DNA of 41,180 nucleotides from NCBI GenBank assembly GCA_902636165.1, contig CACPQV010000004.1, positions 1 to 41,180 of the forward strand, given 5' to 3'. Below, piece by piece: positions 2,584 through 16,698 of this stretch; positions within the stretch are counted from its first letter, which is position 1, and each line of letters begins with the position of its first letter. The translations under genes were made by a program, and so were the position numbers. The notes beneath the pieces were generated by a model. It searched no databases. It worked only from the letters and a program-made list of their open reading frames with translations, and was not told where the DNA came from. This DNA is from an uncultured Pelagibacteraceae bacterium. Lineage in GTDB: Bacteria > Pseudomonadota > Alphaproteobacteria > Pelagibacterales > Pelagibacteraceae.

Positions 2584-3575
2584 TAATCAAAGCTTTTGAA
2601 CTTGAGAAAAAAAATCTTTTAAATCAAAAATTTTTTTTATTTTATGGAAGTAATAAAGGTTTAATAGATGAAACTTTAAATAAAACAATAAAACCGTTAG
2701 TTCCATCTAACATATTTCGATACGATGAAAATGATATAATTAGAAATGCTGAAGCATTTGAAGAAAATTTATCTAATAAATCTTTTTTTGAAGACAAAAA
2801 ACTAATTATAATATCTAGAGTTACGGATAAACTATATAAATTATTAATAAATATTGTAGAGAGAAATTACGAAGGAATAATCATAGTATTAATAGCTGGA
2901 GTCTTAGAAAAAAAATCAAAAATTAGAAATTTATTCGAAAAGGACAAAGGATTATTTTGTGTTCCATTTTACGAAGATAATTATCAATCCTTAAATTTTG
3001 TAGCTCAAAAATTTTTAAAAGAAAAAAAAATTTCTGTATCGCAAGAAAACATCAACTTAATTATAGAGAGATCTGCTAATGATAGAATTAATCTTTATAA
3101 TGAATTGAGTAAGATAGAACTTTTCTCTAAAAATAAAAAAATAATTGATCAAAAAAGTATTCTTGAATTAACAAATTTGAGTGAAAATTTTAGTATTTCA
3201 GAACTTTTAGATAATACGCTGATAAAGAATAAGAAAAAAGTATTTAATATACTAAATGAAAATATTTTTGTTAATGAAGATAATATTTTGATATTAAGAA
3301 CTTTCTCAAATAAATTAAAACGTTTGTTGAAAATCAAATATCAATCTAAGAATGAAATAAACTTAGATAAAATAATAAATTCATATAGACCTCCAATTTT
3401 TTGGAAAGAAAAAGATATAGTTAAAAAACAATTAGGGATTTGGAATTTAAATAAAATTAAAAACCTTATTGTTAAAATTAATGATATTGAATTATTGGTC
3501 AAAAAGTATCCTAACTCTTCAACAAATATTTTGATAAACTTTCTTCTAGAACAAACTGCAGAAACTAATAATTAG
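2580..3575 (+). CDS. holA: DNA polymerase III delta subunit
   Basis: N-terminal 'FFLFYGSNKGLIDETLNK' and overall HolA-like layout; leuS-lptE-holA synteny. Confidence 0.88.
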   Translation: MIIKAFELEKKNLLNQKFFLFYGSNKGLIDETLNKTIKPLVPSNIFRYDENDIIRNAEAFEENLSNKSFFEDKKLIIISRVTDKLYKLLINIVERNYEGIIIVLIAGVLEKKSKIRNLFEKDKGLFCVPFYEDNYQSLNFVAQKFLKEKKISVSQENINLIIERSANDRINLYNELSKIELFSKNKKIIDQKSILELTNLSENFSISELLDNTLIKNKKKVFNILNENIFVNEDNILILRTFSNKLKRLLKIKYQSKNEINLDKIINSYRPPIFWKEKDIVKKQLGIWNLNKIKNLIVKINDIELLVKKYPNSSTNILINFLLEQTAETNN

Positions 3576-4407
3576 TTTTTATAATATCAATTATTTTATT
3601 TAATTGGTCTAAGTCGTGATATTTAAACATTATAGTACCTTTATTTTTTTTGTCATTTTTAATCTTTACATTTAAACCAGTTTTTTCCGAAATAATTTCC
3701 TCGAGACTTGTAATATTAGGGTCTATTTGATGACGCTTGTTGGCTGATTTTCTTTTAAATATTTTAACAAAATTTTCCGTTTGCCTTACTGAAAGTTTCT
3801 TTTCAACTATTTTTTCAGCAATAAAATCAGCATTACTTAGACCAACTAATATTTTAGCATGACCAGCGCTGATTTTTTTTTCTTCAATAAATTTAAGAAC
3901 TAAAGATGGTAACGTTAATAGTCTTAGTGAATTGGTTATATAACTTCTACTTTTTCCAATAAATTTTGACACTTTCTCTTGATCGTATGCAAATTCATCT
4001 ATCAATCTTTTATAACCTTGTGCTTCCTCCAAGGGATTTAGATCATGTCTCTGAACATTTTCAACAATTGCAAATTCTAAAGATTTAAGATCGTCGGCGT
4101 CCGTAACAACCACAGGAATTTCGTGAAGTCCTGCTTTTTGAGCTGCCAACCATCTTCTTTCTCCTGCGATAATCTCATATTTGGAATTATTTGTTTCAGA
4201 TTTTCTAACTATTATTGGTTGTATAATACCGCGTTCCTTAATTGAATTAACTAAATCATTTAAGTTTTCTTCATCAAAATTTTTTCTAGGTTGATATTTG
4301 TTTGGAACTATCTCAGCTAATTTTAAATTATTTGTTTTATTCTCTACCTTAGTTTCACCAATTAAAGAAGATAATCCTCTTCCTAATCCTTTTTTTATTT
4401 TGTTCAT
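3565..4407 (-). CDS. parB: Chromosome partitioning protein ParB
   Basis: 'KKGLGRGLSSLIGE', 'PNKYQPRKNFDEENLNDLVNSIKERGIIQPIIVR', 'IAGERRWLAAQKAGLHEIPV', HTH 'SAGHAKILVGL'. Confidence 0.98.
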   Translation of the reverse strand: MNKIKKGLGRGLSSLIGETKVENKTNNLKLAEIVPNKYQPRKNFDEENLNDLVNSIKERGIIQPIIVRKSETNNSKYEIIAGERRWLAAQKAGLHEIPVVVTDADDLKSLEFAIVENVQRHDLNPLEEAQGYKRLIDEFAYDQEKVSKFIGKSRSYITNSLRLLTLPSLVLKFIEEKKISAGHAKILVGLSNADFIAEKIVEKKLSVRQTENFVKIFKRKSANKRHQIDPNITSLEEIISEKTGLNVKIKNDKKNKGTIMFKYHDLDQLNKIIDIIKTNY

Positions 4408-5201
4408 TATGCTGCACTCCCAATTTTATTTTCCTGTTCTATAAACTCGTCAGTAAAACTATAATAAGATTTGCTGCCTGGGCAATTTTTATCATAAATT
4501 AAGACTGGAATTCCATGTGATGGAGCTTCAGATAATCTTACGTTTCTAGGTATTACCGTTTGGTAAACTTTATCTTTAAAATAATCTCTTGCTTCTTGTT
4601 CAACCTGTGATGAAAGTTTGTTTCTTCGATCATACATAGTCAAAAGTATGCCCTGAATTTCTAATTCAGGATTCAAATTAGTTTTAATTCTCTCAATTGT
4701 TTTCATTAGTTGTGTAAGTCCCTCCAATGCAAAAAATTCCGTTTGAAGCGGCACCAACAATGAATTAGATGATACCAAGGCCATTACCGTTAATAAGCTT
4801 AAAGAAGGAGGACAATCTATAAGAATATAATCATATAATCCTCTAGAATCGTTTAAAAACGGGGTTAATTTAGTCTTTAATATGAAAGCTCTATCGCTAT
4901 CACCTGCAGTCTCAACTTCCAATCCGGAGAGATCTACATTGGATGGTATTAAATCTAGATTTTGAAAGTCTGTTTTTTTTATTACTCTTGAAATAGACAT
5001 TGTTCCATTAAGAATTCCATAAATAGTTTGATCAGATTGAGAGGTGTTGGATAATCCTAATCCTGTGGTAGCATTTCCTTGAGGGTCTAGATCAATTACT
5101 AAAATTTTCTTACCAAGTTGGGATAACGCCGACGCTAAATTAATTACAGTTGTTGTTTTTCCAACTCCACCTTTTTGATTTAAAATTGAAATTATTTTCA
5201 T
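4407..5201 (-). CDS. parA: Chromosome partitioning ATPase ParA
   Basis: Deviant Walker A 'LNQKGGVGKTTTVINLASAL'; 'DPQGNATTGLG'; adjacent to parB. Confidence 0.98.
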   Translation of the reverse strand: MKIISILNQKGGVGKTTTVINLASALSQLGKKILVIDLDPQGNATTGLGLSNTSQSDQTIYGILNGTMSISRVIKKTDFQNLDLIPSNVDLSGLEVETAGDSDRAFILKTKLTPFLNDSRGLYDYILIDCPPSLSLLTVMALVSSNSLLVPLQTEFFALEGLTQLMKTIERIKTNLNPELEIQGILLTMYDRRNKLSSQVEQEARDYFKDKVYQTVIPRNVRLSEAPSHGIPVLIYDKNCPGSKSYYSFTDEFIEQENKIGSAA

Positions 5202-5845
5202 GAAATCTTTTTTTTAATTTTTTTGATGTTTAATATAAACGAGTCGCTGTTAGTTAAACTTTTTTTTTCTTCATAATCTAAATCCCACTCTTGAAGTGTT
5301 TCATTAAGAATTTTTCTCCCACTACTTCCCATAAAAAAAATAATATTTTTATATTTTTTAAAATTTTCATTTACCAAGCTTAAAATCACAGGCATTGGCT
5401 TAAACGCCCTGGACATAATTGTTCCTGTTTCAATATTTTTAAGTGAAAAAATATCTTTCTGAATTATTTTTGTATTTAAATTTAATTTTTTTGAAACTTC
5501 TCTAAGGAAAGCACATTTGTGGTAGCTTTTTTCATAAAGGTTTACTTTTAAATCATTTTTAATTTTTTTCATCACTATGGCCACTATTAATCCTGGCATT
5601 CCACCTCCTGTACCTAAATCTGTGGTTGTATTGCAATTTAAATCAACAAAATCAATGATTTGCGCCGAATCTATTATATGGCGCTCTCTTATTGCCTCCT
5701 TTTCATACATTTTTTTACTTATAATATTAATTTTCTGATTTTTTTCCTGTATCATCGAAATTAAGCTCTCAAGCTCATTACAAGTTTCACGTGAAACATT
5801 TAAATTAGAAATTTTAGAATAAAAATTTAAAATTAAGTTATCCAT
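5198..5845 (-). CDS. rsmG: 16S rRNA (guanine527-N7)-methyltransferase RsmG/GidB
   Basis: 'DLGTGGGMPGLIVAI' SAM motif, 'ERHIIDSAQI', 'MSRAFKPM'; between parA and mnmG. Confidence 0.96.
   Translation of the reverse strand: MDNLILNFYSKISNLNVSRETCNELESLISMIQEKNQKINIISKKMYEKEAIRERHIIDSAQIIDFVDLNCNTTTDLGTGGGMPGLIVAIVMKKIKNDLKVNLYEKSYHKCAFLREVSKKLNLNTKIIQKDIFSLKNIETGTIMSRAFKPMPVILSLVNENFKKYKNIIFFMGSSGRKILNETLQEWDLDYEEKKSLTNSDSFILNIKKIKKKIS
5783..5798. promoter_or_regulatory. parS centromere-like site (AGTTTCACGTGAAACA)
   Basis: Perfect 14-bp palindrome GTTTCACGTGAAAC (5784-5797), 15/16 match to the parS consensus TGTTTCACGTGAAACA; inside the 5' part of rsmG ('NVSRETC'), next to parAB. Confidence 0.93.
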
Positions 5846-7716
5846 TAAGCTATATGCTTAATAGACTTTCTTTTGACGTGTGACAACAAAATATATACGG
5901 CTGCAGGAGTTATTCCATCGATTCTTAAAGCCTGACCCATAGTTTTAGGCCTTATTTCTTTGAATTTGGCTTTTACCTCATTAGAAAGACCTGAAAATTG
6001 ATCATAATCAATGTTATCTGGTATTGTTAAATTTTCATCTCGTTTAAAAGCTAAAATATCGGCCTTTTGTTTCTTTAAATATCCTCTGTAATGAGAGTTA
6101 ATCTCAATCTGCTCATCAATATCATTGCCATAATCAGGGATTTGAGGCCATATATTCCTAATTTTTGTCATATCAACACTTTTTTGGGTTAGAATTTCCT
6201 CTGCTGATCTAAAAACACCGTCTTTCGCTATTTTTATTCCAAATTTATCTGCCTTAGAGGGTGAAATGTTTAAATTAGACATTTGAAGAGATATTTTGCT
6301 TAATTTATCAAATTTATCCTCAAATAGTTGTTTTCTAATTTTTGATATTAAACCAATTTTAATTCCTTTGTGGGTAAGCCTTAAGTCTGCATTATCTGAC
6401 CTTAGACTTAGTCTGTATTCTGCTCGTGATGTAAACATTCTATAAGGCTCTGCAACACCTTTTGTAATTAAATCATCTATCATAACGCCAATGTAAGCAT
6501 CTGATCTATCTAAAATAAAAGGCTCCATATTCTTAAGGGATAGAGCAGCATTAATTCCTGCTATAAGGCCTTGAGCAGCTGCTTCCTCATAACCTGTAGT
6601 TCCATTAATTTGACCAGCAAGATAAAGATTTTTTATTTTTTTTGTCTCCAGTGTTAAAAAGAGCTCTCTAGGGTCAATATAATCATATTCTATAGCATAT
6701 CCTGGTCTGATTATTTTTACGTTTTCTAAACCGCTGATATTGTTGAGTATTTCATGTTGCACAACCTCAGGTAGTGATGTTGATATACCATTAGGGTAAA
6801 TAGTATGGTCATTTAGTCCCTCAGGCTCGAGAAATATTTGATGTCTTGTCTTATCAGCGAATTTTACTATTTTATCTTCGATAGACGGACAATATCTAGG
6901 ACCAACACCTTGTATGCTTCCGGAATACATTGCACTTTTAGATAAATTCTTTTCTATTATTTTATGAACCTTTTCGTTTGTATAAGTCATCGAACAAGAC
7001 ACTTGTTTATTTAAATTTTTTTTAGTCAGAAAAGAAAAAAAATATGGATCTTCATCGGCAAACTGTTTTTCCAAATTTTCAAAATTAATTGTTCTAGAAT
7101 CTAATCTAGGAGGTGTGCCTGTTTTCAATCTTCCAATTTTGAAATTATACTTTTTTAATTGTTCACTTAAACCTGTACTCGGTTTTTCATTAAATCGCCC
7201 AGCAGGAGTTCTTTCATCACCTATATGTATCAAACCATTCAAAAAAGTGCCCGTTGTTAAGATTAACTTGTTACAACTCACTTTGTTACCTTTAAGTGTT
7301 ATAAACCCACTTATTTGGTTTTTTTCAAAAATAAACTCAATTACAGGATCTGAAAAAATGCTTAAATTACAGTAGTTTACAAGTTTTTCTTGCATATATT
7401 TACGATATAATGATCTGTCAGACTGAGTTCTCGGTCCTCTAACTGCAGGTCCTCTACTTCTATTTAATAATCTAAATTGTATTCCAGACTTGTCTGCTAC
7501 CTCTCCCATAACACCATCTAGAGCATCAATTTCTCTAACTAGGTGACCCTTGCCTAAACCACCTATAGCTGGATTACAGGACATTTCTCCTATTGTATTT
7601 TTGTTATGTGTAAACAAAGCGGTATTTGCACCAAGCCTTGCTGAGGCCGCTGCTGCTTCACAACCAGCATGACCGCCTCCGATAACAATTACATCAAATC
7701 GCAAATCTTTTTTCAT
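5845..7716 (-). CDS. mnmG: tRNA uridine-5-carboxymethylaminomethyl modification enzyme MnmG/GidA
   Basis: '[22 protein letters not shown]', '[23 protein letters not shown]', '[21 protein letters not shown]'-type motifs. Confidence 0.98.
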
Positions 7717-7831
7717 GAGCTAAATTTATATTCGATTATAATATTTACAAGATTTCTATTTTTTTTTAAAAAAGGTCTTATTTACCGACGAAAATCAAAA
7801 AAAATATCAAAAAAGCCCTATAAAACGACAA

Positions 7832-9163
7832 TTATTTTCCAATGCAAAAATCATTGAAAATACTACCTAATATCTCCTCTACATCAACTTTACCAACAAT
7901 CATACCTAGTTGTCTTGTTGCTAACCTTAAATCCTCAGCACCTTTATCAAAATCTTTTTTATCATTTTTGTCTGAAAAATTTTTCAAATGTTCAACACAC
8001 TGTAGCAAATGTTGTCTATGCCTTTCTCTTGTAATTAAGATATCTTCCTCTGATATAAATTTATCTTCTAAGTGGTTTTTTATTTTAGAAATTAATTTAT
8101 CAATATTTAAATTGTCTTTTAGTGAAATCAAAACATGATTAAATTTAGAGACTTCGGGGTCTAATTTTTTTTTCAACAGATCTGATTTATTAATTACTAG
8201 AATTGCGTCTTTTTTTAATAAATCATTCAAAAATCCCCTAAAATCGGTACTTTTAGCATCAACTACAACCAATTTCAAATCGGCATTTTCGGCTTTTTTA
8301 AGTGATAACTTTATTCCTTTTTTTTCAATTTCATCTTTTGAGTCTCTAATACCTGCTGTGTCAGAAATAATAACTGGATATCCGTCTAAATTTAGATGAG
8401 TTTCAACAACATCTCTAGTTGTGCCAGCTATTTCAGATACAATTGCAACCTCTCTGTTTGACAAGTTATTTAATAGACTAGATTTACCTGCATTAGTTGG
8501 TCCTACTATTGCAATTTTAAAACCTTCGCGAATTATTTCACCAACCTTTTGATCATTCAGAATTTTATTAATATCATTTATTACACTAAAGGAATCTTCT
8601 TTAATTTTTTTTAAATTTTCCTCAGGTAGATCCTCTTCGGGGAAATCTATTTTTGCCTCAACAATTGTCAAAATTTTTAACAATCTTTCCCTCAGTTCGT
8701 TAAATTTCGCTGAAGATCTTCCTCTCATGATTTTTACAGCTTGTAATCTTTGGATTTCAGTTTCAGCAGATATTAAGTCTGCTATACTCTCGGCTTTAAG
8801 CAAATTTATTTTTCCATTTTGAAATGCAAGCTTTGTAAATTCTCCTGGCTCAGCTAATCTACAATTTTTAACTTTTGAAATCTCGTTTTGAACAGCCAAA
8901 ACTACAGCCTTTCCTCCATGTACATGAATTTCGGCCATATCCTCTCCTGTGTAGCTCTCAGGGCCTGGAAACCATATAATTATACCTTCGTCTATTAGCT
9001 CAGAAGTGTTAATATTGTTTATTTTTCGAAGGGTAGCCACTCTTGGCTGTGAGATTTCTTTTCCTGTAAGTGACGTTATCACATTAGATGCTTCAGAGCC
9101 AGAAATTCTGATAATCGCGACGCCGGAAACTCCTGGACCTGATGATAGGGCATAAATAGTCAT
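7832..9163 (-). CDS. mnmE: tRNA modification GTPase MnmE/TrmE
   Basis: G1 'GPTNAGKSSLLN', G3 'DTAGIR', G4 'NKSD', C-terminal 'FCIGK' motif. Confidence 0.98.
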   Translation of the reverse strand: MTIYALSSGPGVSGVAIIRISGSEASNVITSLTGKEISQPRVATLRKINNINTSELIDEGIIIWFPGPESYTGEDMAEIHVHGGKAVVLAVQNEISKVKNCRLAEPGEFTKLAFQNGKINLLKAESIADLISAETEIQRLQAVKIMRGRSSAKFNELRERLLKILTIVEAKIDFPEEDLPEENLKKIKEDSFSVINDINKILNDQKVGEIIREGFKIAIVGPTNAGKSSLLNNLSNREVAIVSEIAGTTRDVVETHLNLDGYPVIISDTAGIRDSKDEIEKKGIKLSLKKAENADLKLVVVDAKSTDFRGFLNDLLKKDAILVINKSDLLKKKLDPEVSKFNHVLISLKDNLNIDKLISKIKNHLEDKFISEEDILITRERHRQHLLQCVEHLKNFSDKNDKKDFDKGAEDLRLATRQLGMIVGKVDVEEILGSIFNDFCIGK

Positions 9164-9204
9164 AAAATATTATAACTTCTATTCAGCAATATTGGAAAAC
9201 TTAA

Positions 9205-10473
9205 TTAAGCTGGTTTGTTCATTGAATTAAAGAACTCAGCGTTATTTTTTGTGTCTTTTAACTTGGAACTAATGAATTCTATTGCATCCATTGTACCCAT
9301 TGGAGCAATTATTCTTCTAAGTACATTCATTTTTTGTAAATCATTTTTATCAAACAATAATTCCTCTCTTCTTGTCCCTGATTTAGTGATGTCTATTGCT
9401 GGGTAAATTCTTTTGTCTGCAATTTTCCTATCAAGAACAGTTTCGCTATTACCCGTTCCTTTAAATTCTTCAAATATAACTTCATCCATTCTACTTCCTG
9501 TGTCGATCAAAGCTGTAGAGATAATTGTTAGAGACCCACCTTCTTCAATATTTCTAGCTGCTCCAAAGAATCTTTTGGGTCTCTGTAAAGCATTAGCGTC
9601 AACACCGCCAGTTAAGACTTTACCCGAACTTGGTATAACTGCATTATATGCTCTACCGAGTCTTGTTATAGAATCTAATAAAATAACAACATCCTTTTTA
9701 TGCTCGGTCAATCTCTTAGCTTTTTCAATTACCATTTCAGCAACAGCTACATGACGTTGTGCTGGCTCATCAAAAGTTGAGCTTATTACCTCCCCTTTAA
9801 CAGTTCTCTGCATATCTGTAACCTCTTCAGGTCTCTCATCAATTAACAAAACAATTAAATAACATTCAGGATAATTTTTTGCTATTGAGTTAGCTATGCT
9901 CTGCAAGATCATTGTTTTACCAGCCTTAGGAGGTGAAATAATAATTGATCTTTGACCTTTACCAATGGGACTAACTAAATCTATAAGTCTTGGGGTTAAA
10001 TCTTGTTTTTTGTCAGGTTTAATTTGTTCAACTTCCATAACAAGTTGCTTATCAGGATATAAAGGAGTTAAGTTATCAAATGCTATTTTATGTCTAGATT
10101 TATCAGGTTCTTCAAAATTTATTTTACTGACCTGCAATAATGCAAAATATCTTTCCCCTTCTTTTGGTGCTCTAACTGGCCCTTCAACTGTATCACCTGT
10201 TCGCAATCCAAATTTTCTGATCTGACTCGGGCTAACATAGATATCATCTGGACCTGGGAGATAATTTGACTCCATTGCTCTTAAAAAACCAAAACCATCT
10301 TGAAGTAATTGAAGCACCCCTGCTCCGGTTATTTCCTCTTTTTCCGCAACTTTTTTCAAAATAGCAAAAAGGATTTCCTGTTTTCTTAAAGTACTTGCAT
10401 TTTCAATACCAAGCTCTTCTGCTTGAGTAATAAGTTGTTCAGATGATTTTAATTTTAGTTCTTGTATGTTCAT
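9205..10473 (-). CDS. rho: Transcription termination factor Rho
   Basis: '[45 protein letters not shown]', '[14 protein letters not shown]', '[11 protein letters not shown]'. Confidence 0.99.
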
Positions 10474-10479
10474 GAGGTA

Positions 10480-10499
10480 ATTATTAAGGACTTAATAAT
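10480..10499. repeat. Perfect 9-bp inverted repeat in the rho leader (ATTATTAAG-GA-CTTAATAAT)
   Basis: Read directly; starts 6 bp upstream of the rho ATG on the minus strand. Confidence 0.8.
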
Positions 10500-10535
10500 A
10501 GATTTAATATATATATAAATTATAATTATTCAACC

Positions 10536-10973
10536 CTAGATAGGTTTAAAAATTACAACAAAAATGATCAAAATTAGCAATAAAGTGGGAATTTCATTTA
10601 TATATCTGAAAAATTTATGAGAATGACTGTTCATATCTGTTTTAAATTGACCCAAAACTTTTCCAAGATAAAAATGGTATAAAGTTAGAACTACTACAAA
10701 AAATAGTTTTAAAATCATCCATTTTTGCCCTAACTGACTAAAACCTATTTCATGAATTAATAATAGCCCAAATATCCAAGACAACGTCATTGCTGGAGTC
10801 ATTATGTAAAAGAACAATTTTTTTTCCATAACTTTAAATACCTCTGATACTAATTGTTTGTCATTGTTTTGTGAATGATAAACAAAAATTCTTGGAAGAT
10901 ATAAAAGACCAGCCATCCAAGAAATTACAGCTATCAAATGAAGAGATTTAAAAAGTAAATAAGTGTTCATCAA
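10536..10973 (-). CDS. hemJ: HemJ-type protoporphyrinogen IX oxidase (integral membrane)
   Basis: 'LFKSLHLIAVISWMAGLLYLPRIFVYH' with conserved His and multiple TM segments; adjacent to hemH and hemE. Confidence 0.9.
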   Translation of the reverse strand: MMNTYLLFKSLHLIAVISWMAGLLYLPRIFVYHSQNNDKQLVSEVFKVMEKKLFFYIMTPAMTLSWIFGLLLIHEIGFSQLGQKWMILKLFFVVVLTLYHFYLGKVLGQFKTDMNSHSHKFFRYINEIPTLLLILIIFVVIFKPI

Positions 10974-11972
10974 TTATATATTTTTTTGAATTAAAGATTT
11001 TAAGAGTGCTATATGATCATCACTGTCATTTAAACACGGAACCATATCAAAATTTTCTCCGCCTGACTTTAGAAAACTTTCTTTACCTTGAATAAGTATT
11101 TCTTCTAAAGTTTCTACACAATCTGAGGAAAAGCCAGGACATATTGCCAGGACATTTTTTTTACCTTCACTTGGCAATTTCTCTAGGGTTTTGTCTGTAT
11201 AAGGCTCAAGCCATTTTTGAGGACCAAACCTTGATTGAAAAGTTGTTTTAAGTTCTATGGAATTAAACTTTTCAGAAATTAATCGTGTAGTTTTTTGACA
11301 ATAGCAATGATAAGGATCTCCTTTATCAAAGTATTTTTGGGGTATGCCATGATAGGATACTAATATTAGGTCTGGCTCCCAATTTATTTGGTTTATCTTG
11401 TTGTTTAATGAGTTAACTAACGCGTCAATGTAAAGGGGGTGTGATTCGTAGTGCGGTATTATTTTAATTGATGGTTGCCACCTCATACTCATTAATGTCC
11501 TATACACTTCATCGCAAACAGTAGCTGTTGTTGCAGCGGCATATTGTGGGTATAGTGGAAGTATAATTAAGTTTTCACAACCTTTTTCCTGTAGATTTAT
11601 TATTTTACTTTTAATACTTGGGTTGCCATATCTCATAGCATAATCAACAATTACATTTTTTTCAGATATTGAATTTGATAATTTATCTGCTTGCTTTTGA
11701 GTATAATAAAGTAATGGTGAAATATTTTCCTTTTTCATCCAAATTTCCTTATAAGCCTTAGCAGTTTTTGATGGCCTTAAATTTAAAATAAAAACATTTA
11801 AAATGACTTGCCAAAGTAAAGGATTAACTTCTATAACTCTTTTGTCAGAAAGAAATTCTTTCAAATATTTTCTAATGTCAAACCAACTTGTTGAGTCTGG
11901 AGTTCCTAAATTAATTATTAAAACACCTGTTTTACCAAACTTTACTGGTGGATGATTCAAGTCTTTTGTCAT
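10974..11972 (-). CDS. hemH: Ferrochelatase
   Basis: 'GVLIINLGTPDS', 'ILVSYHGIPQKYFDKGDPYHCYCQKT', 'CPGFSSDCVETLEEI'. Confidence 0.98.
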   Translation of the reverse strand: MTKDLNHPPVKFGKTGVLIINLGTPDSTSWFDIRKYLKEFLSDKRVIEVNPLLWQVILNVFILNLRPSKTAKAYKEIWMKKENISPLLYYTQKQADKLSNSISEKNVIVDYAMRYGNPSIKSKIINLQEKGCENLIILPLYPQYAAATTATVCDEVYRTLMSMRWQPSIKIIPHYESHPLYIDALVNSLNNKINQINWEPDLILVSYHGIPQKYFDKGDPYHCYCQKTTRLISEKFNSIELKTTFQSRFGPQKWLEPYTDKTLEKLPSEGKKNVLAICPGFSSDCVETLEEILIQGKESFLKSGGENFDMVPCLNDSDDHIALLKSLIQKNI

Positions 11973-12973
11973 TAATAATTTTTTACAGTTTTAACTAAAT
12001 ATTCCATTAAATTTGGATCTGTTTGTGGCAATACCCCGTGACCTAAATTAAAAATATATGGATGATTTTTAAAAATATCTAAATATTTAAATATTTCTTT
12101 TTTTAAAGTTTCCTTGTCAGTAAGTAAAATTTTTGGATCCATGCCTCCTTGAACGGGAATAGTTATTTCTTTTTCAATTTTAGACGGACTAACTTCGTAA
12201 TCAATACAAATCACATCTGGTTTAACAATTTCACAATATTTTTTATAATCTTTTACCCCTCTTGGAAAACATATTGCTGGAATTTTTAATGACTTTATAA
12301 ATCTTACCAGGGTATGCGTGGGTTTATAGACGTAAAAATCAAGATCTTTCTCATCTAATAATCCTGCCCAACTATCAAATATTTGGATTATTTCAGCTCC
12401 GTTATCAACTTGATTTTTAATATGAACCATCAAAAATTTTTCTATAATTTTTAATGTTTGTTGAATTAAAATTTTATCTTTAAAAAAATTATTATTAAGA
12501 TTAAACTTTGGTGATTGTTTATTAATCATATAAACTAATAATGTCCAGGGCGCCCCTACAAAACCAATGGTGTTTTTATTTTTTGTAAGCTTATTATTTT
12601 TAACTAAATTAATTGCTTTATAAACTGGACTAATTTTAGAAGTAAACTCACTTTCAGTTATTTTAGATAGATCATTTAAATTTAAATCAGCAAGAATAGG
12701 TCCAAAATTTTTTTTAAACTCAACTTTTTGTTTACAACCATAAGGCAATATCAAAATATCTGAAAATATAATTGCAGCGTCTAAATTAAATCTTTTTAAC
12801 GGCTGAAGCGTTATTTCAGCTGCTAGAGTAGGATTTAAACACAATTTTATAAAATCTGGATTAGTTTTTCTTATTTCTCTAAATTCTGGTAAATATCTAC
12901 CTGCTTGTCTCATAATCCAAACAGGATTTACTGAAGTCCTTTTATTAATTATTACTTCTTCAATTGGTGTCAT
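11972..12973 (-). CDS. hemE: Uroporphyrinogen decarboxylase
   Basis: 'PVWIMRQAGRYLPEFREIR', 'FSDILILP', 'GFVGAPWTLL', 'LGHGVLPQTDP'. Confidence 0.98.
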   Translation of the reverse strand: MTPIEEVIINKRTSVNPVWIMRQAGRYLPEFREIRKTNPDFIKLCLNPTLAAEITLQPLKRFNLDAAIIFSDILILPYGCKQKVEFKKNFGPILADLNLNDLSKITESEFTSKISPVYKAINLVKNNKLTKNKNTIGFVGAPWTLLVYMINKQSPKFNLNNNFFKDKILIQQTLKIIEKFLMVHIKNQVDNGAEIIQIFDSWAGLLDEKDLDFYVYKPTHTLVRFIKSLKIPAICFPRGVKDYKKYCEIVKPDVICIDYEVSPSKIEKEITIPVQGGMDPKILLTDKETLKKEIFKYLDIFKNHPYIFNLGHGVLPQTDPNLMEYLVKTVKNY

Positions 12974-13254
12974 ATTAATAATTAAATATATTTAATTATA
13001 TTAGTATTAGAAGATGTGAATATTGTTGATTAAATTTTATAAACATCTTTTAAACAATTTATTAACATTTAAATCTATTTATTTCTTAAATATATATGAA
13101 AAATTGAAGCTTATTCATAACTTACGAAATTTTATTAAAATTTTATACATATGTTTAATAATGTTAATAAAAGCCTGGTTTTACAACATAAATTTAAAAA
13201 TATTAAAATTGATAAAAATAATTTAAATAATAAAAAGTTATTAACAGTTAATAC
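12974..13254. other. Candidate chromosomal replication origin (oriC)
   Basis: Very AT-rich 281 bp gap between divergent hemE and ppsR/DUF299; DnaA-box-like 9-mers (ATATTCACA minus strand 13015-13023; TTATTCATA 13111-13119; TTATTAACA at 13059-13067, 13238-13246 and, minus strand, 13162-13170); genes on both sides point away from it; parAB, parS, rsmG and mnmG nearby. Confidence 0.8.
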
Positions 13255-14079
13255 ATGACAAATACATATCAAATTTATCTAATATCTGATTCAACAGGTG
13301 AAACATTAGATAGAATTTTTACAGCTATTAAAGCTCAATTTAAGAATATCAATTACAAGATCCACACTTATTCTTTTACAAGAACAGAAAATCAAATATC
13401 TAAAATTTTGATAGATGCAGAAAAATATTCAGATTCTATAATTTTATACTCAATAGTTGATAGCAATTTAGCAAAGTATTTGGCAAAAATGAGTAATGGT
13501 AAAAATATTCCATGCTTTGGAGTTTTAGGAGATTTAATATTGAGCTTCTCAAAACTTTTAAATCAAAAAGCTTCACATGAACCTAGTGGTCAATATGCTT
13601 TGAATGAAGAATATTACAAAAGAATTGCAGCAATACAGTTCACAATGAATCATGATGATGGTAATTTGGTAAAAGAACTAAACAAATCAGATATTATTTT
13701 ACTTGGTGTAAGCAGGACAAGTAAAACACCTACATCTATCTATTTGGCAAACAAAGGTTTCAAAACATCTAATATTCCTTTAGTAAATGAAAATTCAATT
13801 CCTAAATCTTTAAAAGAGAATCCAAAATTAGCATGTGTTGTAGGTTTAAATACAGAACCTGATAGATTGGTTGATATAAGAAAGAATAGAATGAATTCAC
13901 TTAAAGAAACTGAAAATAAAGCTTATACAGATATAGAAAGAATTAAAAAAGAGATAGAAGAAGCCAAAAATACTTTTAAAAAATATAAATGGCCAACAAT
14001 TGATGTTACAAGAAAATCAGTTGAAGAAACTGCAGCTTCGATAATCAAGATATACGAAATATACAAACAAAATGGTTGA
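13255..14079 (+). CDS. ppsR: Pyruvate,phosphate dikinase/PEP synthase regulatory kinase-phosphorylase (DUF299)
   Basis: 'IYLISDSTGETLDRIFTAIKAQF', 'DIILLGVSRTSKTPTSIYLANKGFKTSNIPLV' P-loop. Confidence 0.95.
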   Translation: MTNTYQIYLISDSTGETLDRIFTAIKAQFKNINYKIHTYSFTRTENQISKILIDAEKYSDSIILYSIVDSNLAKYLAKMSNGKNIPCFGVLGDLILSFSKLLNQKASHEPSGQYALNEEYYKRIAAIQFTMNHDDGNLVKELNKSDIILLGVSRTSKTPTSIYLANKGFKTSNIPLVNENSIPKSLKENPKLACVVGLNTEPDRLVDIRKNRMNSLKETENKAYTDIERIKKEIEEAKNTFKKYKWPTIDVTRKSVEETAASIIKIYEIYKQNG

Positions 14080-14662
14080 TTTGATACTCGCTTCCAAAAG
14101 CAAAGTAAGAAAAAAAATACTTGATGAAAACAATATACTTGCTCGAGTTGAGCCCTCAAACATTGATGAAAATATAATCAAAAACAGTTTATTAAAAGAA
14201 AACGCAACCCCGACAATTATTTCAAAAAACTTGGCTGAGTTAAAAGCAAATAAAATAAGTCAAAAATATAGAGATACTTTTGTACTAGGAGCTGATAGTG
14301 TTATTGACTTAGAGGGTCAGCTTATATCAAAACCAGAAAGTAGAGATGCAGCTTTCGAAATTCTTAAGAAACTAAATGGTAATAAACATAATTTAGTTAG
14401 TTCTGTTTGTATTTCAAAAAATGGATCAATGATTTGGAATTATTCAGATAAAGCTACACTTATTATGAAAAATTTTACCAATGATGAATTAAAAAAGTAT
14501 TTATCTAAGATTTCAAATGAAGCTTTATATGCTTATAATGTTTATCAGATAGAAGGAGAGGGTAGAAAATTGTTCTCAAGTATTGAAGGTGATGAAAATA
14601 CGATAATGGGTCTTCCAATCAAGAAACTAAAAGAATATTTAAATAACCATAAATCAACATGA
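14072..14662 (+). CDS. maf: Maf family nucleotide pyrophosphatase
   Basis: 'LILASKSKVRKKIL', 'FVLGADSVID', 'GDENTIMGLPIKKLKEYL'. Confidence 0.93.
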   Translation: MVDLILASKSKVRKKILDENNILARVEPSNIDENIIKNSLLKENATPTIISKNLAELKANKISQKYRDTFVLGADSVIDLEGQLISKPESRDAAFEILKKLNGNKHNLVSSVCISKNGSMIWNYSDKATLIMKNFTNDELKKYLSKISNEALYAYNVYQIEGEGRKLFSSIEGDENTIMGLPIKKLKEYLNNHKST

Positions 14663-15471
14663 AAAAATATTTAGTAGTAGGCAATCCTATAGAACATTCA
14701 CTATCACCCAAATTACACAATTACTGGATTAAAATTAATAAAATTAATGCTATTTATGAAAAAAAAAAATTAAATGAAAGTCAAATAAAAAATTTAATTT
14801 ACGAAGTTAAAGATAAAAAAATAAGTGGTCTAAATGTGACAGTTCCTTTCAAGCAGAAAGTAATACCCTATTTAGATGAAATAACTCCGGAAGCAAAGGA
14901 GACGCAATCTGTAAATACAATATATCTTGGGAGCAACGGGACTGTTGGAGATAATACCGATATTGATGGTTTCCAAGCAAGCCTTGCAGACACGGGTTTG
15001 GTGGGAAAATCTTCCTTTGATTTTAAAGATAAAGATATTTTTATTTTAGGTGCTGGTGGAGTGGTACCATCAATTATTTTTGCACTTACAAGATTGAAGG
15101 CCAAGAGTATAATAATAAGTAATAGAACTAGACAAAAAGCTGAAAATTTAAAGAAAATTTTTCATCATATAAATATTGTAGATTGGGGAGTGATACCCAA
15201 CTTTGATATGATTATAAACGCTACAAGCATTGGATTAAAAATTGAAGATAGAATTGATTTTGATTTTTCCAATGTAAAAAATAAATTTTTTTACGATGTA
15301 ATATATAATCCAAGCGAAACTAATTTTTTAAAAACTGGAAAAAAATTTAGCAATAAAATTTGCAATGGTAAATGGATGTTTATTTATCAGGCATATTACG
15401 CTTTTAAGATATGGCATAACTTTTTTCCAATAATAGATGATGATGTAATAAAACTTTTAAACGATGATTAA
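14659..15471 (+). CDS. aroE: Shikimate dehydrogenase
   Basis: 'YLVVGNPIEHSLSPKLHNYW', 'GLNVTVPFKQKVIPYLD', 'FILGAGGVVPSIIFAL'. Confidence 0.97.
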   Translation: MKKYLVVGNPIEHSLSPKLHNYWIKINKINAIYEKKKLNESQIKNLIYEVKDKKISGLNVTVPFKQKVIPYLDEITPEAKETQSVNTIYLGSNGTVGDNTDIDGFQASLADTGLVGKSSFDFKDKDIFILGAGGVVPSIIFALTRLKAKSIIISNRTRQKAENLKKIFHHINIVDWGVIPNFDMIINATSIGLKIEDRIDFDFSNVKNKFFYDVIYNPSETNFLKTGKKFSNKICNGKWMFIYQAYYAFKIWHNFFPIIDDDVIKLLNDD

Positions 15472-16033
15472 AATTGGAATTTTAGGTGATATTGGATCCG
15501 GGAAAAGTTATGTGGCTCGTAGTTTTGGTTACCCAGTGTTTGATGCTGATAAAGAGGTCAGCAAATTATATAAAACTAATAAAAAAATTTTTAAAAAATT
15601 AAAAAAGATTTTACCAAAATATTTTGGGAAATTTCCTATAGAAAAATATCAAGTTTTAAGCGCAATTCTTGATAAAAAAGAGAATCTGTCAAAAATCGTT
15701 AAAATTATTCATAAAGAAGTAAAAGAAAAAATGAGGATTTTCCTTAAAAAAAATACCCACAAAAAAATTGTTATATTAGATATACCACTTTTATTAGAAA
15801 ATAAGATTAATAATAAAAATTATATTCTCATTTTTGTTCAATCTAAAAAATCTGAAGTTTTAAAAAGACTAAAAAAAAGAAAAAATTTTAATCAAGATAT
15901 TTTAAATAAATTTAAAAAAATTCAACTTCCACTTGACTATAAAAGAAAGAAATCAAACTTTATTATCAAGAATGATTTTAGTAAAGTAACTGTTAAAAAA
16001 TTTGTAAAAGATATTAAAAAAAAAATTTCTTAA
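15464..16033 (+). CDS. coaE: Dephospho-CoA kinase
   Basis: 'KIGILGDIGSGKSYVARSFGYPVFDADKEV', 'ILDIPLLLENK'. Confidence 0.94.
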   Translation: MIKIGILGDIGSGKSYVARSFGYPVFDADKEVSKLYKTNKKIFKKLKKILPKYFGKFPIEKYQVLSAILDKKENLSKIVKIIHKEVKEKMRIFLKKNTHKKIVILDIPLLLENKINNKNYILIFVQSKKSEVLKRLKKRKNFNQDILNKFKKIQLPLDYKRKKSNFIIKNDFSKVTVKKFVKDIKKKIS

Positions 16034-16698
16034 TGAAGGAAATAGTATTAGATACAGAGACTACCGGACTATCTGTTAAAGATGGCCATAGAATTGTTGA
16101 GATTGGGTGTGTCGAATTAGATAATCTAATTCCAACAAAAAATAATTTTCATTATTATCTAAATCCTGAAAGAAAAGTTTCTGAAAAAGCTCTTGAAGTT
16201 CATGGGTATACAGATGAATTCTTATCAGACAAAAAGAAATTTAGTGAGATTGCTGACGAATTTTTGAATTTCATCAGAGATAAAAGACTTATTATTCATA
16301 ATGCTGATTTTGACTTATCACATTTAAATAATGAGTTAAAAAAATTTGGTCACGAACCATTAAAAAATGAGATTGTTGATACCATAGTGCTGGCTAGAGA
16401 TAAATTTCCTGGTTCTCAAATAAGTTTAGATGCTCTCTGCAAAAGATATAAAATCGATAATTCAAAAAGAATTCGACATTCTGCTTTAATAGATTGTGAG
16501 TTACTAGCAAAAGTTTACATAAATTTGATTGATCAAAAAGAACCAACACTAGACTTTCAATCTCAAGAAAAAAATGAAAATGACATTAATCGTAAAAATC
16601 ATTTATATTTTAAAAAAATAGTTCAACCATCAGAGTATGAAAAATTAAATCATGCAAAGTATTTAAAGAGTAGTTTAAAAAAAAATTATTTTAATTAA
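16033..16698 (+). CDS. dnaQ: DNA polymerase III epsilon subunit (3'-5' exonuclease)
   Basis: 'KEIVLDTETTGLSVKDGHRIVEIGCVEL', 'LIIHNADFDLSHLN', 'RHSALIDCELLAKVY'. Confidence 0.97.
   Translation: MKEIVLDTETTGLSVKDGHRIVEIGCVELDNLIPTKNNFHYYLNPERKVSEKALEVHGYTDEFLSDKKKFSEIADEFLNFIRDKRLIIHNADFDLSHLNNELKKFGHEPLKNEIVDTIVLARDKFPGSQISLDALCKRYKIDNSKRIRHSALIDCELLAKVYINLIDQKEPTLDFQSQEKNENDINRKNHLYFKKIVQPSEYEKLNHAKYLKSSLKKNYFN

Follow-up and report, generated by a model that had tools for sequence, protein, structure and literature searches.

Locus and conservation of the hemE-ppsR gap

The window, that is the whole stretch of 41,180 nucleotides that was analyzed, comes from an uncultured bacterium whose closest named relatives are single-cell and metagenome assemblies of Pelagibacteraceae (SAR11). 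A block of leftward-reading genes (3565-12973; parB to hemE, including hemH, hemJ, rho, mnmE, mnmG, rsmG and parA) and a block of rightward-reading genes (13255-16698; ppsR, maf, aroE, coaE and dnaQ) are separated by a gap of 281 bp, whereas the second-largest intergenic gap of the window measures 115 bp. The GC content of the hemE-ppsR gap is 12.8% (87% A+T), compared to 28% for the window as a whole. The length, the extreme AT-richness and the divergent gene blocks had been described in an earlier note on this DNA and, after the composition and strands were rechecked, the description proved exact to the base. An Rfam scan of the gap returned no RNA. The features of the locus are as follows:

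3565-4407, minus strand: parB (TIGR00180, above cut-off)
4407-5201, minus strand: parA-family partition ATPase, adjoining parB (ParA/RepA-family matches below the equivalog cut-offs)
5783-5798, no strand: parS-like centromere site AGTTTCACGTGAAACA, inside the start of rsmG and 7.2 kb left of the gap
11972-12973, minus strand: hemE, left boundary gene (TIGR01464, above cut-off)
12974-13254, no strand: candidate oriC, the AT-rich hemE-ppsR gap of 281 bp (composition, conservation and skew switch of relatives)
13255-14079, plus strand: ppsR/DUF299 (RP001, COG1806), right boundary gene (NF003742, above cut-off)

The origins of Caulobacter and Rickettsia are located at the hemE-COG1806 junction (PMC1914354), in agreement with the earlier note, which had placed them between hemE and RP001(DUF299). 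In the window and in its relatives the gap occupies this position between hemE and COG1806/DUF299 (ppsR), and its AT content exceeds the genome average, which is a further criterion for alphaproteobacterial hemE-COG1806 origins. The assembly that contains the window comprises 661 kb in 50 contigs and is 55% complete, and skew and other genome-wide tests were therefore performed on relatives. The main reference was G012, a genome of the same genus that is complete in one contig of 1,343,202 bp.

The divergent hemE-ppsR gap was kept in 110 of 110 related loci (30 from genomes of the same genus and 80 others that contain ppsR), with a length of 261-285 bp, mostly 281-282 bp, and a GC content of 13-20%. 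The 108 distinct gaps among them were used for counts; because these gaps share ancestry, the counts are not independent events and the shuffles only exclude composition as a cause.

Eight conserved DnaA-box-like sites

When the 108 gaps were aligned, the predicted boxes fell on eight position-conserved sites, named S1 to S8:

13015-13023, minus strand: predicted DnaA box S1; ATATTCACA in the window, whereas 54 of the 108 gaps have a perfect TTATTCACA
13037-13045, plus strand: predicted DnaA box S2; TTATAAACA, at most one mismatch from TTATNCACA, first of the tandem three
13048-13056, plus strand: predicted DnaA box S3; TTTTAAACA in the window, TTATAAACA in 29 gaps
13059-13067, plus strand: predicted DnaA box S4; TTATTAACA (61 of 108 gaps)
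13111-13119, plus strand: predicted weak DnaA box S5; TTATTCATA in the window
13143-13151, plus strand: predicted weak DnaA box S6; TTATACATA in the window, at most one mismatch from TTATNCACA; TTATACACA or TTATTCACA in some relatives
13162-13170, minus strand: predicted DnaA box S7; TTATTAACA (64 of 108 gaps; TTATTCACA in 6)
13238-13246, plus strand: predicted DnaA box S8; TTATTAACA in 30 of 108 gaps, TTATACACA in 15

S2, S3 and S4 are in tandem with a pitch of exactly 11 bp. The earlier note had listed five 9-mers, each of which was recovered at its position and on its strand, and had proposed that their conservation be checked in relatives. All five are orthologous sites whose positions are kept across the 108 distinct gaps; the list was incomplete in that S2, S3 and S6 had been missed.

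Of the 30 copies of TTATTAACA in the entire 661-kb assembly, three lie in the window gap, whereas dinucleotide shuffles of the gap contain 0.06 on average and never as many as three in 2000 trials. At most one mismatch separates seven 9-mers of the gap from TTATNCACA (0.71 expected; not reached in any of 1000 shuffles), and none of the boxes of the window gap matches TTATNCACA exactly. Over the 108 gaps, TTATTAACA occurs 186 times (7.4 in shuffles), TTATNCACA 86 times (4.1) and TTATNAACA 262 times (17.7), so that DnaA-box-like 9-mers are ∼15-25 times commoner than in shuffled sequence. No excess over shuffles was found in the same gaps for TTATNGACA (3 vs 2.1) and TTATNTACA (21 vs 17.9), and the enrichment is therefore specific at position 6. 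An A+T content of 87% could be thought to generate such 9-mers by chance alone, but the shuffle counts for the window and for the 108 gaps, together with the conservation of position, refute this explanation, which we consider vanishingly improbable.

In the complete G012 genome the gap is the sole 300-bp stretch with at least three TTATN[C/A]ACA sites, and the same was found in 400-kb pieces of two further relatives, G061 and G062. Two clusters of looser matches in G012, at 1,324,394 and 1,290,827, were rejected as candidates: both map within or next to ordinary genes (the latter between what we take, from the translations, to be tsaD and hemC), contain fewer strict boxes and fall outside the interval of the T-A skew switch described below.

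A further conserved word, around TTGAAGCTTATTA at 13103-13116 of the window gap, was observed when the gaps of the relatives (L005-L182) were compared; it overlaps the weak site S5 in one group of them and is absent from others, for example from G012. Its core TTGAAGC is present in 69 of 108 gaps, with ∼1 expected.

TTATTAACA as a probable variant of the DnaA box

Among the relatives, the same sites carry TTATTAACA in some gaps and the canonical boxes TTATTCACA or TTATACACA in others, with repeated exchange between them. On a tree of the hemE and ppsR proteins, the exchange of A and C at position 6 requires at least 3-8 changes per site. The position is mostly A at S3, S4 and S7 and mostly C at S1. 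The DNA-binding domain of SAR11 DnaA aligned over its full length with domain IV of E. coli DnaA (1j1v), and the RDHTT contact segment is retained.

Because of the exchange with TTATTCACA and TTATACACA at the same positions, TTATTAACA is best read as a variant of the DnaA box, with the form TTATN[C/A]ACA, and a single protein that tolerates both A and C, namely DnaA, would be the simplest account of it. The earlier note had left open whether TTATTAACA is a site for DnaA or for another initiator; the former is supported and an additional initiator is not needed. Binding by a separate origin-binding protein, such as a repressor competing with DnaA, was also considered and is judged unlikely. It would agree with the A at position 6, where known high-affinity boxes have C (table in PMC4285127), with the unchanged contact segment of DnaA and with the division between S3, S4 and S7, which mostly have A, and S1, which mostly has C. 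However, A and C interchange at the same sites with the remaining conserved positions of the 9-mer unchanged, the seven other informative positions agree with the DnaA box, and a third class, with G or T at position 6, is not enriched in the gaps. As the RDHTT segment is the same as in E. coli and does not point to a new specificity, TTATTAACA is likelier to be a DnaA box of lower affinity than the target of a DnaA with altered specificity.

Position of the probable replication origin

The raw cumulative GC skew of G012 was weak, with a broad trough that was lowest 29 kb away from the gap. This was too flat to place an origin, and it was replaced by the skew at fourfold-degenerate sites, corrected for coding-strand bias. 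The T-A skew of G012 then switched directly ahead of hemE, whose first coordinate is 1,260,947 and which borders the gap; the switch is one gene away from the gap. The bootstrap 5-95% interval of the switch (1,254,781-1,272,833; 18 kb) contains the gap at 1,261,949-1,262,209, although it may be somewhat narrow since the bootstrap treats genes as independent. In the 400 kb around the gaps of G061 and G062, the T-A switch was 8 kb and 10 kb off, with wide intervals that contain the gap. The fourfold GC skew and the gene orientation of G012 were noisier; their point estimates were 26-57 kb off, and their intervals contain the gap. A switch in strand composition, another criterion for a hemE-COG1806 origin, is thus present in the T-A skew of G012; G061 and G062 agree with it at lower precision. 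The skew check that the earlier note had called for, run here in relatives, therefore came out in favor of the gap.

The partition locus lies close by. The consensus parS GTTTCACGTGAAAC occurs as a single copy in the complete G012 genome, 7.5 kb from the gap, and once each in the 400 kb taken from G061 and from G062, ∼8 kb from the respective gap.

Conservation of the gap, enrichment of boxes and the T-A skew switch of relatives support the reading of the gap as oriC that the earlier note had put forward, and the sequence comparisons lead us to assign a probability of about 0.93 to the gap being the chromosome origin of this SAR11 bacterium. Alternatively, the gap could be a divergent promoter region of hemE and ppsR, with DnaA or some other regulator controlling transcription from it, and the origin could lie elsewhere, for instance near dnaA. 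The promoters of both genes must indeed fit inside the gap, a TTTACA-18-TAAAAT match directed toward ppsR is present at 13180-13209, and the gap contains conserved words beyond the boxes (TTGAAGC, see above, and GTTTTAC). Against this, the 90% interval of the T-A switch does not include dnaA of G012 (1,198,372-1,199,793), no TTATN[C/A]ACA was found in the 598 bp upstream of that gene, the box cluster is unique in the G012 genome, and the number and order of the sites would exceed what a simple promoter needs. We therefore hold a promoter with a distant origin to be very improbable. The word GTTTTAC at 13178-13184, found in 82 of 108 gaps (9 expected), may be part of the ppsR promoter.

Predicted unwinding side and mode of initiation

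The flank of S1 defines a further feature of the gap:

12974-13014, no strand: probable unwinding region (DUE) with a DnaA-trio-like 3-nt rhythm beside S1 (conserved flank, putative function)

On the strand of S1, the 3' flank has T at positions 6, 9 and 15 in 91-92% of the 108 gaps, and partly at positions 12 and 18. The run of trios after S1 has a mean length of 3.12, compared to 1.99 in shuffled flanks, and reaches four or more in 31% of the gaps compared to 11%. In the window, the flank reads CTA ATA CTA ATA following 4 nt. The DnaA-box/DnaA-trio pattern consists of 3'-NAN-5' repeats near a box (PMC8287927), and at least three such trinucleotides are present within 16 bp of the DnaA box, which is a weak test in DNA this rich in A+T. 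The flank of S6 has a longer trio run, but one confounded by the conserved S7 box that occupies it. Because of the conserved trio-like rhythm beside the first box, the left arm of the gap, adjacent to hemE, is the likely site of unwinding.

The arrangement suggests the following mode of initiation. DnaA would bind the approximately eight 9-mers of the form TTATN[C/A]ACA, with S1, the site nearest to the consensus in most relatives, as the likely anchor. From S1 a DnaA filament would probably run over the trio-like DNA into the AT-rich left arm beside hemE, where the duplex would be opened for helicase loading. S2-S4, with their 11-bp pitch, and S5-S8, mostly of the TTATTAACA type, are probably sites of lower affinity that would be filled cooperatively and so set the timing of initiation. 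Segregation of the origin would involve parS, 7 kb to the left, with ParA and ParB.

CtrA, IHF and other regulators

The window gap has no CtrA site TTAA-N7-TTAA, and the 108 gaps together have 78, close to the number expected by chance (61 ± 9 (sd)); neither CtrA nor GANTC sites are enriched or depleted in the gaps. Response regulators of G012 were gathered with PF00486, which yielded four proteins. None of these reached the curated CtrA cut-off, the best scoring 133.5 bits compared to 350 for a model that is built on Rhodobacter-type CtrA and could miss a diverged CtrA; this best candidate is better explained as PhoB. The cell-cycle repressor CtrA, which controls the origin in Caulobacter, appears to be absent from SAR11. 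GcrA was present in four of five genomes tested and a CcrM homolog is known from SAR11 (PMC3973325), so that part of the Caulobacter circuit remains. Across the G012 genome, GANTC, the CcrM site, is more than 2-fold depleted (1642 vs 3764 expected), which is consistent with an active CcrM in SAR11; in view of this genome-wide depletion no meaning is attached to GANTC in the gap.

The IHF-type motif WATCAANNNNTTR was found in 25 of 108 gaps (8-9 expected), the window gap being without it, and the looser WATCAN5WTR was at chance level. Proteins of the HU/IHF family are present. At 1,244,375 in G012 (the L188 genome), 18 kb from the origin, a short protein combines a winged-helix output domain with a degenerate receiver. 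It was common to all five genomes searched, and by its score it is not CtrA.

Comparison with known origins

Cori of Caulobacter crescentus and the origin of Rickettsia prowazekii share with the SAR11 gap both flanking genes, the AT-rich gap, the DnaA boxes and the nearby parA and parB. The Caulobacter parS cluster lies on the left arm, ∼8 kb from the origin (PMC5815017), similar to the 7.2 kb in the window. At least five copies are present in Caulobacter, in contrast to the one consensus copy of G012. Cori contains five CtrA sites and an IHF site, whereas neither consensus was found in the window gap. CtrA sites are not part of every alphaproteobacterial origin and are absent in E. ruminantium (PMC1914354). 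The high-affinity box of Caulobacter is TGATCCACA (PMC4285127), while that of SAR11 would be TTATTCACA, accompanied by many TTATTAACA.

The predicted layout of the SAR11 gap resembles that of E. coli oriC, in which a strong box likewise faces an AT-rich arm where unwinding occurs, weaker boxes form arrays, and the outermost box is turned the other way (S1 on the minus and S8 on the plus strand; compare R1 and R4). Boxes in the E. coli arrays are spaced by 2 bp, as they are between S2 and S4 here. Unlike in E. coli, the SAR11 boxes vary at position 6, and the flanking genes differ. The basal unwinding system of Bacillus subtilis resembles the S1 flank in its succession of a box, a spacer of ∼4 nt, trinucleotides and AT-rich DNA, and in the conserved middle T of the trios on the box strand (middle A opposite). 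The SAR11 trios, however, are degenerate (ATA/CTA) and do not mainly follow the 3'-GAT-5' consensus, and S1 is not directly abutted by a second strong box.

The location of the gap is the known alphaproteobacterial one; the new details are the variant boxes and the seeming absence of CtrA. We tentatively propose, at slightly less than even odds, that the SAR11 origin is streamlined and CtrA-free, that most of its DnaA sites are of the form TTATNAACA, a variant at position 6 that exchanges freely with the classical box, and that timing rests on weak boxes instead of CtrA. If so, replication timing in a very abundant ocean bacterium would depend on weak DnaA boxes and not on the CtrA repressor. 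Having variant boxes and apparently no CtrA control, SAR11 makes replication timing with a minimal regulatory set testable in a free-living alphaproteobacterium, and the 280-bp gap offers a target for DnaA-binding tests and for replicating plasmids of SAR11. SAR11 bacteria are among the most numerous organisms of the ocean, and how fast they grow there is difficult to measure; with a conserved origin, peak-to-trough estimates of growth and the layout of genomes would gain a fixed coordinate. A search of the open literature, with subscription papers and DoriC outside its scope, found no paper describing a SAR11 origin; an earlier automatic prediction, for example in DoriC, is likely.

In a second family of the same order (f2; G037-G060), ppsR was not found in 24 genomes, and the 400 kb around hemE of G037 contain no cluster of three boxes. 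The origin of this family may have been relocated or may be built on other boxes. Most of its genomes have one recurring box ∼345 bp upstream of the QAGR motif of hemE.
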